Shown: positions 4,455 to 38,627 of the stretch, piece by piece | Layout of the letters: the number at the start of each line of letters is the position of its first letter | Numbering within the stretch: the stretch's first letter is position 1 | The notes under the pieces: generated by a model | Seen by the model: the letters and a program-made list of their open reading frames with translations, nothing else | The model's database searches: none | Told to the model about the DNA's origin: nothing | Translations under genes and position numbers: made by a program | Assembly: GCA_944324635.1 (NCBI GenBank) | Contig: CALUXC010000002.1 | Location: 124,001 to 188,000, forward strand | DNA length: 64,000 bases | Source: Candidatus Avelusimicrobium intestinipullorum | GTDB lineage: Bacteria > Elusimicrobiota > Elusimicrobia > Elusimicrobiales > Elusimicrobiaceae | Direction of reading: 5' to 3'

Positions 4455-5903
4455 ATGGAACAAAATGTCGTAAAAACCAAACACCCCACCGGGCTTTGGC
4501 TGTTGTTTTTAACCGAAATGTGGGAGCGCTTTAGCTATTATGCTATGCGCGGTATTTTGATTTTCTACATGATCCACCTGCTGAAGATGGGCAATCCGCA
4601 AGCGTCCAACATTTACGGCACGTTTACCAGCTTGGTGTATCTGTCCTCTCTATTGGGCGGTTTCCTGGCGGACCGCTACCTGGGCCAAAAGTGGGCCACT
4701 ATCTGGGGCGGCATGATGATTGCGGCCGGTATGTTCGTGATGACTGTTCCCACGGAAGCATTTTTGTTTATTGCGATGGGCCTGATTATTTTGGGAAATG
4801 GTTTCTTCAAACCCAACGTGGTGGCCATCGTCGGCCAGTTATATGAAGAAAACGACGCCCGCCGCGACGGCGGTTTTACCATTTTCTACATGAGCGTAAA
4901 CATCGGCGCGTTTTTCGGCCCGCTGATGGTGGGCCATTATGCCGCCGCCGGCAACTATAAAGCGGCGTTTGGCATTGCTGGCGCCGGTATGATTATGGGG
5001 CTATTGACGTTTATCCTGGGGTACAAAAAGTTCCTCTCCGGCAAAGGCGCCGCCCCCAAAGAAAAACCTACTTTCTACAAGGACCCCGCCCTCTGGGCCA
5101 TCGTGCTGGCCATTCCCATGGTGGGGCTGTATATGAAGGGCTACCACACCGCTTCTTATATTTCCTTTGCGGTGTTGGCCGCGGCGTATTACGGATACAA
5201 TAAAAAAGTAAAACGGGCCAAAACCGAAAATACCGCTCCGCTGACTACCGAAGAAAAGCAAAAAATTGCGGTTATCGGTATCTTGGCGTTTTTCAGCATT
5301 TTCTTCTGGACGGCGTTTGAACAAGCCGGCGCCGCGCTTAACCTGTTTGCTTACGAATACACGGACCGCGTGATTTCTTTCTTTGGCCACACGTGGGAAA
5401 TTCCGGCCAACTGGTTCCAGAGCTTAAACCCGCTGTACGTGGTCATTTTTGCACCGCTGTTTTCCAAATTGTGGATTGAACTGGCTAAACGCGGCAAAGA
5501 ACCTTCCACCCCCGCCAAGTTTACGGTGGCACTGTGGTTGATTGCGGCGGCGTTTGGCGTGATGCTGTTGGGTGCGTTTGCGTTGGTCAACAACCCCAAA
5601 ATCAGCTTGTTCTACCTGGCATTTACGTACCTGTTCCAAACGTTTGCGGAACTGTGCATTTCGCCCGTGGGGAAATCCATGGTCACCAAATTGGCGCCGG
5701 CGCGGTATGTGTCGCTGTTAATTGGGATTTGGTACCTCTCCAACGCGGCGGCCAATAAGCTGGCTGGCATTTATTCGGGTTATTTCCAGAAAATCAGCAA
5801 CGAACAGTTCTTCCTGTGGTTGGTGATTGTGCCGCTGGCCGTATCCGGTATTTTGATGCTGTCCATGAAAGGCATCAAAAAATGGATGCATGGCATACAC
5901 TAA
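4455..5903 (+). CDS. Proton-dependent oligopeptide transporter (POT/PTR2 family)
   Basis: Inner-membrane symporter importing di- and tripeptides with protons. The 482 aa protein has the ExxER proton-coupling motif in EMWERFSYY (E21, E24, R25), the loop GGFLADRYLGQK, and the PTR2 signature region FYMSVNIGAFFGP. About 12-14 membrane segments are apparent. A strong AGGAGG site precedes the ATG and a good terminator follows, so it is a monocistronic gene. It sits with a pilin between rplI and dnaB. Peptide uptake fits an amino-acid fermenter. The exact substrate range is not readable from sequence. Confidence 0.93.
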   Translation: MEQNVVKTKHPTGLWLLFLTEMWERFSYYAMRGILIFYMIHLLKMGNPQASNIYGTFTSLVYLSSLLGGFLADRYLGQKWATIWGGMMIAAGMFVMTVPTEAFLFIAMGLIILGNGFFKPNVVAIVGQLYEENDARRDGGFTIFYMSVNIGAFFGPLMVGHYAAAGNYKAAFGIAGAGMIMGLLTFILGYKKFLSGKGAAPKEKPTFYKDPALWAIVLAIPMVGLYMKGYHTASYISFAVLAAAYYGYNKKVKRAKTENTAPLTTEEKQKIAVIGILAFFSIFFWTAFEQAGAALNLFAYEYTDRVISFFGHTWEIPANWFQSLNPLYVVIFAPLFSKLWIELAKRGKEPSTPAKFTVALWLIAAAFGVMLLGAFALVNNPKISLFYLAFTYLFQTFAELCISPVGKSMVTKLAPARYVSLLIGIWYLSNAAANKLAGIYSGYFQKISNEQFFLWLVIVPLAVSGILMLSMKGIKKWMHGIH

Positions 5904-5975: not shown

Positions 5976-6557
5976 TTAGAAGGAATAGCCTGGGTGCCCA
6001 TTGGGAGCATAAGGCGTGGGAGTGGTGCCTCCAGTCCAACTTTTACAGATTTTCCGCATTAATCCTTCCCGGTGATTGCTAAAATAATGGCACCCTCGTT
6101 GGCCGGCTGCATATTTCCAACCATTGCTGTCCGCACCGCTTATATTATCATACGCCACCATATAGCCGCCAAAAGGTTGATTTCCTTCATCTCCCCGCGA
6201 AACCCCCGCAAATCGGTCGTTAGCAAATACAATCATTCCATGCGTATATTTAATCCCGGAACCGCTTCCAAACATGGGACCCCTTGTTACGGGAGTGCCT
6301 GCGGGCATATCTACCCCCAATTCTTCCAAATTGGCGGCATATCGTCCGTTAGCCAAATAAAACGCTTCTTGCGCGTCTTTAAGGTGCTTTACTATGGGCA
6401 TATAGGAAGCAAAACGGGATTTCCATACCACTATTTCATATTGCGGCAACGCCACGGCCGCCAAGATACCAATAATAAGAACCACCACTAATAGCTCTAT
6501 TAGCGTAAATCCAGGGGTTTTATCCGCCGGGAATGTTTTTTGATAAATTTTTTCCAT
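5976..6557 (-). CDS. Type IV pilin-like / pseudopilin protein
   Basis: A prepilin of 193 aa. After a 17-residue polar leader comes the prepilin peptidase site G^FTLIE with Glu at +5, then a hydrophobic helix LLVVVLIIGILAAVALP that anchors it and packs in the pilus core. The C-terminal two-thirds is a globular domain with a few cysteines (CHYF, CKSW). The ATG at 6557 has no Shine-Dalgarno sequence; instead TAAATT sits 6 bases upstream, as in leaderless mRNAs. It is a solitary gene. Two similar pilins occur at 20401 and 37986. Whether it is a major pilin, minor pilin or T2SS pseudopilin cannot be told. Confidence 0.9.
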   Translation of the reverse strand: MEKIYQKTFPADKTPGFTLIELLVVVLIIGILAAVALPQYEIVVWKSRFASYMPIVKHLKDAQEAFYLANGRYAANLEELGVDMPAGTPVTRGPMFGSGSGIKYTHGMIVFANDRFAGVSRGDEGNQPFGGYMVAYDNISGADSNGWKYAAGQRGCHYFSNHREGLMRKICKSWTGGTTPTPYAPNGHPGYSF

Positions 6558-6769
6558 AAGCAAAATTTATCAAAAAAAAACGCGTCAAGGCCTGCCAAGC
6601 CCTGGGGCTCTGCCACGGACAGGGTTTGGCAAAATACGGCACTAACCCAGGGCTCCTCCCTCCAGGGCCACTCACACGACTGGTTGGGCCACATTATTTC
6701 CGCTCTGTCGTACTATCCACCAAAAGGACTTTCCTCTCTTCTTGCAGCTGTGGTTAGTGTCGTTTTCGT

Positions 6770-6798
6770 TTGTTCGGTCCTTTTGTCCCGTCTATAAA
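6770..6798 (+). promoter_or_regulatory. Candidate sigma-70 promoter for a plus-strand RNA
   Basis: TTGTTC at 6770-6775 and TATAAA at 6793-6798 are separated by exactly 17 bases. Transcription would start near 6805, at the foot of the long hairpin at 6803-6880. There is no plus-strand gene downstream, so a non-coding transcript is the natural product. Confidence 0.4.
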
Positions 6799-6802
6799 AA
6801 GC

Positions 6803-6970
6803 CTTCCAAGCGGATTGGAAATTTTATTGTTTGAGCGCGGGGTACAAGCCCTGCGAGTTATAAAATTTCCCGCTTGGAAGTGATTTTATGGGGCCATGGA
6901 CCGGGTATTTTTGGGGTACTTTTTTGTGCTCAAAAAATACCCCTGCCGGTGACGGGGCCTTACCGGCTGT
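6803..6970 (+). ncRNA. Candidate structured RNA of unknown family
   Basis: A long imperfect hairpin opens this stretch. Its outer arms are 6803-6812 and 6871-6880 (10 bp). After a 4-base bulge, the inner arms 6817-6827 and 6860-6870 form 11 bp, and a GC-rich apical helix closes around TACAAG. Two more hairpins follow (6903-6942 and 6945-6967). The candidate promoter at 6770-6798 fits its 5' end. The family is not recognised. On the minus strand the same first hairpin is followed by CTTTTTAT, so a terminator role in that direction is the main alternative. Confidence 0.35.
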
Positions 6971-7000
6971 GAAGCCCCCCGCCTAACGCCCACTCTATAC

Positions 7001-7025
7001 AAAAACCCCCGCTTTCGCGGGGGTT
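7001..7025 (-). terminator. Terminator of the rpsF-ssb-rpsR-rplI operon
   Basis: The stem AACCCCCGC/GCGGGGGTT with a tight loop is followed by TTTTTG on the minus strand, 26 bases past the rplI stop. Confidence 0.9.
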
Positions 7026-7050
7026 ATACAAAACGCAATTTGTTCGGGAT

Positions 7051-7563
7051 TTATTTGGCTTCGGCCGCGGCTTCGGTTTTTTCTTCCGGCTTGGCGTCGG
7101 CTACTTTTTCTTCCACCGTGGTCAAGGGGTTGATCTGCACCTTGATCGTGGCGGTGACGGTCGGCTTCAAATAAATGCCCACTTCGGTTTCACCCAAAGC
7201 TTTAATCGGCATATTCAGCTCAATGGCGTCCTTGGCAATGTTGTGGCCCAGGGCATTCAAGGCTTTGTAGATGTCGGCTTTGTTGACAGAGCCAAACACT
7301 ACGCCGTCGCTGTTGACGGTTTTGGTGAACGGCAATACCACACCCGCCAATTTTTCGGCGATGGCACGAGCTTCGGCAAGTTCCGCTTCAATGCGTTTGG
7401 CACGTCTTTCGGCGCCGAGCTGCCAGTTTTTAATCGCGCCTTCGGTGGCGAGTTCCGCCAAGCGGTGCGGGATCAAGAAGTTGCGGGCATAACCGGGCTT
7501 CACATCAACGATGCTGCCCACCATTCCCAAGTTTTTCACATTCTGTTTCAAAATAACTTTCAT
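7051..7563 (-). CDS. rplI: 50S ribosomal protein L9
   Basis: Large-subunit protein L9, 170 aa. The N-terminal domain is clear: MKVILKQNVKNLGMVG and the glycine-rich PGYARNFLIP. It is joined by a long helix to a C-terminal domain. About 20 extra residues rich in Glu, Ala and Lys follow the normal end (from about residue 150), a common variable tail. It is the last gene of the S6-SSB-S18-L9 operon and is followed by a strong terminator. Confidence 0.98.
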   Translation of the reverse strand: MKVILKQNVKNLGMVGSIVDVKPGYARNFLIPHRLAELATEGAIKNWQLGAERRAKRIEAELAEARAIAEKLAGVVLPFTKTVNSDGVVFGSVNKADIYKALNALGHNIAKDAIELNMPIKALGETEVGIYLKPTVTATIKVQINPLTTVEEKVADAKPEEKTEAAAEAK

Positions 7564-20400: not shown

Positions 20401-20865
20401 TTAGAACGTATAAGGAGCCGTTTGTTTGTTGGTCAAAAAGCGGCACAGCTTTTCGCCTTCGGCATTATCGTAGTAGCAAGTTAACTGTTTCGTGTCTTTG
20501 GCGGCATAAATGGCATACGGCTTGCCAATGCGGCGGCATACGCCATACCCAAGCGTAGAAGTAGTGGTCGTGCCGGCGCTGACAGCCCGGCAATGAAAAT
20601 TCTTGATAATCTTGCTGGGAGTTCCCGATGCCGTGGTATCCTCTCCCGGTACGGATAAATCCAAATCCGCCAAATCCGTAGCATAGGTGCCATTGGCCAG
20701 ATAATATGCTTCCTGTGCCAGCAAAATGGATTTCACCATGGTCAACGCTTCCGACACGCGGGACTTTTCCACCGCTTTTTCATATTGCAGCAAAGCCACT
20801 CCCGCCAAAATACCAATAATCAGCACCACCACCAACAGCTCTATCAAAGTAAAACCGCGTTTCAT
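20401..20865 (-). CDS. Type IV pilin-like / pseudopilin protein
   Basis: A 154 aa prepilin with a very short leader (MKRG^FTLIE), Glu at +5 and the hydrophobic helix LLVVVLIIGILAGVALLQY. The QEAYYLANGTYATDLADLDL segment closely parallels the other two pilins here. The C-terminal domain has four cysteines (CRAV, CRRI, CYYD, CRFL) that could form disulfides. A GGGGGAA ribosome site precedes the ATG. Solitary gene. Exact pilus role unknown. Confidence 0.92.
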   Translation of the reverse strand: MKRGFTLIELLVVVLIIGILAGVALLQYEKAVEKSRVSEALTMVKSILLAQEAYYLANGTYATDLADLDLSVPGEDTTASGTPSKIIKNFHCRAVSAGTTTTSTLGYGVCRRIGKPYAIYAAKDTKQLTCYYDNAEGEKLCRFLTNKQTAPYTF

Positions 20866-37985: not shown

Positions 37986-38528
37986 TTACGGTAAAACGTA
38001 ACGTTGCCACCAGGAACGTAAATCTCCCAAAGTTCCCTCTTCAAGTCCTTGGCAGAACTCCCCATTTTTAATGGTGGAAGTCCCGTTGCGTGATTCTATA
38101 CACATCAGCTGATCTTCCCGTAAAGGGGACCAACTAAACCCGTTGCACTTGTATTTGCCAGACGTCCACACCGCGGCAATCCCGCCAGCAGTAGCCGAGT
38201 CGTTATTAAGCACCACATAAAAATCCTTCCCTTGGCGGATAGAATCAGCCCCCAGCGTAATCAGCTGGCAAGTATTGCCAATGCCGGCAGATACGGAAGG
38301 CGCATCCAGCGGCAAATCTATATCCAATTGGTCAAACCGTCCGGCAAAAACACCGTTTGCCATCAGATACACTTTCTGTGCTTCCACGACGGACTGCACC
38401 GCCGTTTTTAATTGTGTATTGCGTGATTTCCAAACGGCTTTTTCATACTGAGGCACGGCAATGGCCGCCAAAATGCCAATAATTAATACCACTACCAATA
38501 ATTCTATTAAGGTAAACCCTTTTGGCAT
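37986..38528 (-). CDS. Type IV pilin-like / pseudopilin protein
   Basis: A 180 aa prepilin: leader MPKG^FTLIE with Glu at +5, hydrophobic helix LLVVVLIIGILAAIAVPQY, then VWKSRNTQLKTAVQSV and a unique C-terminal domain with cysteines (CQLI, CNGF, CIES, CQGL). GGAG lies 6 bases before the ATG at 38528. Third solitary pilin in the window, with the same N-terminus and a different C-terminus. Lies between recA and an xerD-like gene. Confidence 0.93.
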   Translation of the reverse strand: MPKGFTLIELLVVVLIIGILAAIAVPQYEKAVWKSRNTQLKTAVQSVVEAQKVYLMANGVFAGRFDQLDIDLPLDAPSVSAGIGNTCQLITLGADSIRQGKDFYVVLNNDSATAGGIAAVWTSGKYKCNGFSWSPLREDQLMCIESRNGTSTIKNGEFCQGLEEGTLGDLRSWWQRYVLP

Positions 38529-38627
38529 GTCTGTCTCCAAAACCGGAATTAAATGTTATTTTAGTTTACCAGTTCCTAAGGAAGAAAACAATCCCGCCCC
38601 ACTCTCCCAGTAAAAGCCCTAAAAAAC

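Follow-up and report, generated by a model that had tools for sequence, protein, structure and literature searches.

A repeated hairpin-shaped DNA element upstream of dispersed type IV pilin genes in Candidatus Avelusimicrobium intestinipullorum and its relatives

The stretch of Candidatus Avelusimicrobium intestinipullorum DNA analysed here (the window, 64,000 nucleotides) contains a densely structured region at positions 6558-7000, between a type IV pilin-like gene and rplI. Its main part, 6768-6905, belongs to a family of hairpin-shaped repeats that most likely act as DNA rather than as a new RNA, and the region upstream of the pilin gene as a whole is a mosaic of repeated modules (Table 1). 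Dozens of copies of the element are found in sister species. We give about an even chance to the reading that this is a fork-oriented DNA element of dispersed pilin units, which would probably function as a recombination or insertion site.

Table 1. Features of the locus (positions in the window)
Feature	Position	Strand	Basis
Type IV pilin-like gene, 193 aa	5976..6557	-	PF07963 N_methyl, TIGR02532
Perfect palindrome of 16 bp whose loop contains the pilin start codon, TTTGATAAATTTTG..ATG..CAAAATTTATCAAA	6536..6577	-	Inverted-repeat scan
Leader module A, GC-rich hairpin TGCCAAGCCC..GGGTTTGGCA	6593..6631		Inverted-repeat scan and copies
Leader module B, CACTCACACGACTGGTT..GCCACATTATTTCC..CTGTCGTAC, another dispersed repeat	6662..6718		DNA matches
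Main element, long imperfect palindrome, core TTGTTTGAGC-hairpin-GCGAGTT	6768..6905	+	Alignments, model R1
Second palindrome closing the element, here ..GGGTATTTTTGGGGTAC..	6903..6942		Inverted-repeat scan; in most aligned copies
Terminator-like hairpin after rplI, outside the element	7004..7025	-	Terminator scan; also kept behind rplI in related genomes
rplI (ribosomal protein L9), syntenic anchor	7051..7563	-	TIGR00158, 126.8 bits
POT-family oligopeptide:H+ symporter gene, syntenic anchor on the opposite flank	4455..5903	+	TIGR00924, 331 bits

The pilin gene, scanned minus its first residue, scores above the cut-offs of both of its families (PF07963, 30.3 bits for a cut-off of 21.2; TIGR02532, 30.2 bits for 16.3), and its product has the prepilin N-terminal motif. 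Across 78 distinct pilin starts, the palindrome around the start codon hardly varies, even at synonymous third positions (AAA 78:0, TAT 78:0, CAA 77:1, ATT 72:6), as found with a search pattern that fixed the residues and allowed synonymous codons. Directly upstream of it, a run of about 10 T recurs across the pilin starts. It is possible that this palindrome is a translation or recombination signal. Leader module A has copies of 81-86% similarity at L027, L030 and L051, and at other loci within longer matches. Three diverged copies of leader module B were recognized by eye in the rplI-pilin spacer of the related genome G024 (L195). The second palindrome takes the forms ..AAAAAGTAC or ..AAAAAGGGC at other copies of the element.

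The sequence-only reading had described 6558-7000 as a dense, structured region, and inverted-pair counts and folding energy show that it is indeed more structured than expected by chance. There are 16 perfect inverted 8-mer pairs in the region, a number reached by none of 300 dinucleotide shuffles and by none of 144 stretches of 443 nt from the window. Folding energies compared with shuffles give z of -5.8 on the plus strand and -4.0 on the minus strand, and 6770-6945 folded as DNA gives z of -8.1. The surplus of helices comes from a single hairpin at about 6770-6905 and the palindrome after it. The strongest hairpin, 6794-6889, is real and forms the heart of the main element. The two perfect 8-bp helices reported earlier (6640-6647 with 6752-6759, and 6722-6729 with 6777-6784) are exact, and the other helices also lie where they had been placed. 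The pseudoknot proposed from the crossing of these two helices does not stand, since some crossing 8-bp pair is present in 68 of 300 shuffles and in 25 of 144 real stretches, i.e., at chance level. Among related copies whose two arms can be aligned, none pairs all 8 of 8 positions of either helix. The pseudoknot was therefore rejected as a chance crossing of arms from separate repeat modules, with helices that are not conserved.

A DNA search of 41 related genomes revealed many copies at about 69-89% identity in five genomes of the same genus (G007, G012, G014, G021, G024) and weaker ones in G002 and G019. The element is 125-170 bp long and forms an imperfect palindrome built about a fixed core, TGTTTGAGC-hairpin-GCGAGTT, with the apical hairpin bracketed by TGTTTGA and GAGTT. 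From the outside inward, the consensus arms are CCGGCCC..GGGCCGG, GCCCC/GGGGC, ATAAAAA/TTTTTAT, CTTCCAAGCGG/CCGCTTGGAAG and GAAATTTTAT/ATAAAATTTC. Fifty copies were fetched and aligned. Alignment A1 (47 copies) leaves out L038, L050 and L071, which are cut or internally duplicated, and A2 (45 copies, 43 distinct) further leaves out L047 and L061. In the window, the element is described by 47 pairs in 6 helices, and model R1 gives this copy 128.5 bits. Matches to R1 occur in 39 of 294 genomes of the phylum. Of these, 34 belong to the genus and the other 5 to three distant families, where the core TGTTTGA(G/A)..GAGTT is retained and the arms are different yet largely complementary. Draft contigs often end in or beside an element (G012:C14, G007:C22, G002:C1, G024:C4/C6/C7), and copy numbers from draft genomes are thus probably underestimates.

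The core pattern was also found in at least 118 stretches of genome contigs, and those whose titles name a phylum are mostly Elusimicrobiota. Eleven of these loci and the single viral hit were rescored with R1. Weaker copies with the same TGTTTGAGCG..GCGAGTTAT core are seen in Clostridia, namely at L083 (Anaerococcus marasmi) and at L121 and L129 (Clostridium sp. MAG.206). Rescoring supports the Clostridium sp. MAG.206 copies (49 and 37 bits), yields weak copies in Anaerococcus (24-20 bits) and gives no match for the Dependentiae and Methylococcaceae core hits. The Clostridia copies suggest a wider, apparently unnamed repeat family. On a viral contig, a copy of 89 bits (L193:1637-1761) follows the gene for a major head protein and a tail-like gene, so the repeat can travel on phage. 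A search of phage records showed no DNA similarity.

The covariation that the sequence-only reading had proposed to look for among homologs is present: pairing is kept through compensatory changes. In the structure of A2, which was drawn by eye from a single copy (L044) and is thereby favoured over slid controls, 95.2% of cells pair, vs. 35.8-53.1% when the structure is slid (47 pairs, 43 distinct rows). Two-sided changes are seen in 24 of the 47 pairs and in 155 cells, and none of 500 shuffles reaches any of these measures. From one subfamily to another the two arms vary in step, as in GCCCC/GGGGC, GTCCC/GGGAC, GAGCC/GGCTC and GTCCT/AGGAC. The drawing of the structure from one copy does not explain the two-sided changes.

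Compensatory change on its own fits either nucleic acid. On the strand that is transcribed, a functional RNA can pass through G.U but does not tolerate A.C. Among the 1,936 cells, the element has 1,820 Watson-Crick pairs vs. 23 G.U and 38 A.C mismatches, i.e., the stem covaries with no G.U preference on either strand; an earlier count on A1 gave 23 G.U and 26 A.C. In contrast, RNase P RNA of the same genus, used as a control, has 269 G.U vs. 28 A.C (31 sequences, pairs from RNAalifold). This lack of G.T preference, unlike RNase P RNA, makes the constraint on the element look DNA-level rather than RNA-level. RNAalifold itself prefers another register on the plus strand, with 94 G.U to 15 A.C, and gives 26 G.U and 18 A.C on the minus strand. 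The plus-strand 94:15 is largely due to two pairs in competition with one covarying from C-G to U-A in 10 rows, and because of this covarying pair the hand-drawn register was kept and the RNAalifold one rejected. The comparison with RNase P RNA provides a cheap general test to distinguish a DNA palindrome from an RNA structure where covariation alone cannot decide.

These counts bear directly on the possibility that the region encodes a structured RNA, either a leader of the minus-strand pilin mRNA or a plus-strand small RNA made from a promoter at 6770-6798. Such an RNA would account for the strong fold and the compensatory pairs, for the conserved unpaired bases around the core, for the sense placement upstream of pilins and for the T-runs that flank the hairpin on both strands. 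The mismatch counts argue against it, and so does the promoter evidence. The 17-bp-spaced promoter described earlier turned out to be weak: a consensus scan finds no promoter there, and its -10 box reads TACAAA in many copies, a change accompanied by a compensating one in the opposite arm. The distance from element to pilin start is very variable, and copies that lack a pilin persist. The earlier statement that the region matches no known RNA family holds, as an Rfam 15 check gave no match at gathering score in the window and only chance-like, non-credible hits below threshold at 6400-7200; there is likewise no tRNA or tmRNA in the window. RNase P RNA, suggested by GAGGAAAGUCC on the minus strand, was rejected, since an ordinary rnpB lies elsewhere in the genome (G000:C2:69752-70096, 205 bits). 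The region is also non-coding, as had been read, and the lone 85-aa open reading frame across it matches no Pfam family. The mismatch counts do not favour a long non-coding RNA, and we regard the structured-RNA explanation as unlikely.

The element could alternatively be a bidirectional terminator or insulator that shields pilin genes from read-through. In favour of this, its long stem has runs of A and of T at the base, the genes on either side of several element-only sites are convergent or in tandem, and transcription of rplI is directed at the pilin gene. However, rplI has its own terminator-like hairpin (Table 1), the conserved core and bulges go beyond what a terminator needs, and the terminator scanner did not call the element. 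We consider this role very improbable.

Placement was analysed for 49 copies in four genomes, i.e., that of the window (G000) and G007, G021 and G024. The genome of the window has 50 N_methyl matches, and the three relatives have 65-88. Forty of the 49 copies are found upstream of a type IV pilin start, at no more than 700 bp from it; 34 of the forty have the orientation seen in the window and six are inverted. The 34 comprise 27 from the distance list, six from a direct recheck and the window copy. Pilin distances rest on 150 of 272 matches listed and are upper bounds; 22 copies were rechecked directly. Seven copies have no upstream pilin, and two at contig ends (G024:C4, G024:C5) stand outside the pilin test. 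By our own arithmetic, such positions, up to 700 bp upstream of a pilin, make up about 3% of the four genomes. Four of the six inverted copies belong to head-to-head pairs, and the other two are G000:C1:437848 and G007:C15:57. The four head-to-head inverted pairs are in G007 (C4:44053/44308, C3:111567/111759, C20:7425/7672, C10:11308/11529), and in each the copy closer to the pilin is the inverted one.

The main rival to our reading is that the element is a passive or selfish non-autonomous palindromic repeat of MITE or REP type, which hitchhikes in a spacer duplicated along with pilins and has no role in their turnover; pilin orientation would then result from selection against head-on transcription. 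The inspected copies in distant Elusimicrobiota families, in Clostridia and on the one phage contig are not beside pilins, which speaks for it, as do the inverted head-to-head pairs and the range of 0 to 28 copies per genome. Against it stands the concentration of 34 of the 49 copies in one place and one orientation upstream of pilins, far above the share of the genome that such positions make up.

Orientation to the replication fork was assessed with the leading strand defined by GC skew, in 39 stretches of 20 kb from G007, G021 and G024, one set of which was picked to hold elements. Pilin open reading frames are on the leading strand in 45 of 45 cases, vs. 352 leading to 295 lagging for other frames (Fisher p 7e-12). 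In the genome of the window, where most stretches were picked to hold pilins, the figures are 20 of 21 for pilins vs. 173:162 for other frames (p 5e-5), which brings the four genomes to 65 of 66. L286 (|GC skew| under 0.02) and L331 and L335 (each with one leading-strand pilin) were left out of these totals. In 20 evenly spaced stretches, 12 of 12 pilins are on the leading strand. The other two pilins of the window (20401-20865 and 37986-38540) are on the minus strand like the one discussed here. The elements of the three relatives are oriented to the fork 27:3, and all three exceptions are inverted partners.

The genome of the window has only two copies of the element for its 50 pilins, and its pilins are fork-oriented all the same; pilin orientation thus does not require the element. 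This agrees with the passive-repeat explanation, and selection against head-on transcription could be enough by itself to orient pilins. However, the skew-tested stretches also include five copies with no upstream pilin, and every one of these has the standard orientation to the fork. The orientation of pilins and that of elements may have a common origin, in a shared route or in selection. In itself, the near-complete placement of pilins on the leading strand is striking; it calls for insertion coupled to the fork or else for very strong selection. We consider the passive repeat possible, if somewhat doubtful.

Our preferred reading, a recombination or insertion site, draws on the different states of single sites across species. 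At the lpxK site (between a deacetylase-like gene and lpxK, names assigned by eye), the element is found with no pilin in G007, G012 and G014, and G021 has element, pilin and element in direct orientation. In G021, the flanking repeats, each made of leader and element, agree with one another at 417 of 462 aligned bases; the flank in G014 is matched better by the outer right flank than by the inner one. The mscL-gdpD site (names also by eye) was compared at 15 loci: it is empty in seven genomes, holds leader and element in G007 and G021, and holds pilin, leader and element in G263; the remaining five have other genes or were unclassed. A second core at this site in G263 was rejected as a chance TTGTTTGAG inside the pilin gene. 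At the rplI site, pilin and element occur together in G000 and G007, the pilin occurs with no element in G021 and G024, and G012 and G045 have neither. Neither a target-site duplication nor a precise point of insertion was found, and the empty mscL-gdpD sites are too diverged to define a duplication. The states resemble gain and loss through flanking repeats, with a direction of change that we infer from the comparison.

Several known systems offer partial parallels. Integron attC sites carry an AAC/GTT motif at their R'/R'' ends. By eye, the element has no such ends, and the pilin genes are dispersed in the genome, not arrayed. Integron integrase (TIGR02249) is over cut-off in none of 61 genomes of the genus, all of which have sub-threshold tyrosine recombinases, and for want of an IntI an integron was rejected. 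In three genomes, a tyrosine recombinase gene is found some 0.2-0.7 kb away from an element copy (G024:C1:118954-119565, G045:C8:76702-77286, G291:C18:10152-10739), which may reflect one syntenic site rather than a functional link. attC sites are imperfect hairpin DNA with structure conserved beyond sequence, they belong to single-gene units and they are sensitive to the orientation of replication (PMC5371416); the element resembles them in its imperfect-hairpin form and in its orientation to the fork.

REP/REPIN sequences with their RAYT (TnpAREP) are likewise dispersed intergenic palindromes, present as single copies and inverted pairs (PMC6006769). REP are short hairpins, in contrast to the 125-170 bp of the element, and the GTAG/GTGG tetranucleotide at the hairpin foot was not seen by eye in the 47-copy consensus. 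MITEs also invite comparison, the element being palindromic. IS200/IS605 elements characteristically insert into the lagging-strand template at the replication fork (PMC6006769). However, Y1 transposase (PF01797) gives no match in G000, G007, G012, G014, G021 or G024, and no left and right end pair is defined for the element. The transposase is found in 7 of 41 genomes of the genus; mobility by RAYT or IS200 was rejected, since the element-rich genomes lack it. In Neisseria, a guanine quartet upstream of pilE is structured DNA that promotes pilin gene conversion (PMC3547852, PMC10094033). The element likewise lies upstream of pilin genes, but it is a predicted hairpin, not a quartet, and is present at many intact pilin genes, not at one expression locus. 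Literature searches on Elusimicrobi- with pilins, type IV pili, palindromic repeats and the core letters yielded no description of the element among the matches listed.

The recombination or insertion reading implies the following sequence of events. The complementary arms and fixed core would allow a long hairpin or cruciform to form in the cell. With pilins and elements in one fork orientation, the pilin-sense strand is the lagging-strand template, the strand on which attC sites and IS200/IS605 ends are exposed as folded hairpins (PMC5371416, PMC6006769). The folded element, or leader and element together, may then mark or serve as a recombination or insertion site. Pilin units would be gained, duplicated and lost at forks, and element-only sites would be left behind. 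The enzyme would be host recombination acting between repeated leaders, or some recombinase; no element-specific one was identified in searches for Y1 transposases and integron integrase.

A more specific form of this proposal is a cassette-like system, in which single pilin genes are inserted, exchanged and lost at forks via single-stranded hairpins. We put it forward tentatively and think it rather unlikely. If true, it would mean a previously undescribed arrangement in which each genome has dozens of pilin genes as single units, many of them preceded by a palindrome that folds as DNA, and a shuffled surface-pilus repertoire in a gut lineage that has neither an integron integrase nor a Y1 transposase. 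As for the broader reading of a recombination or insertion site, it would, if right, help to explain how a gut lineage with a reduced genome keeps 50-88 scattered pilin-type genes per genome. The upkeep of these pilins would then be testable, with sites, orientation, and candidate donor and acceptor states in hand.
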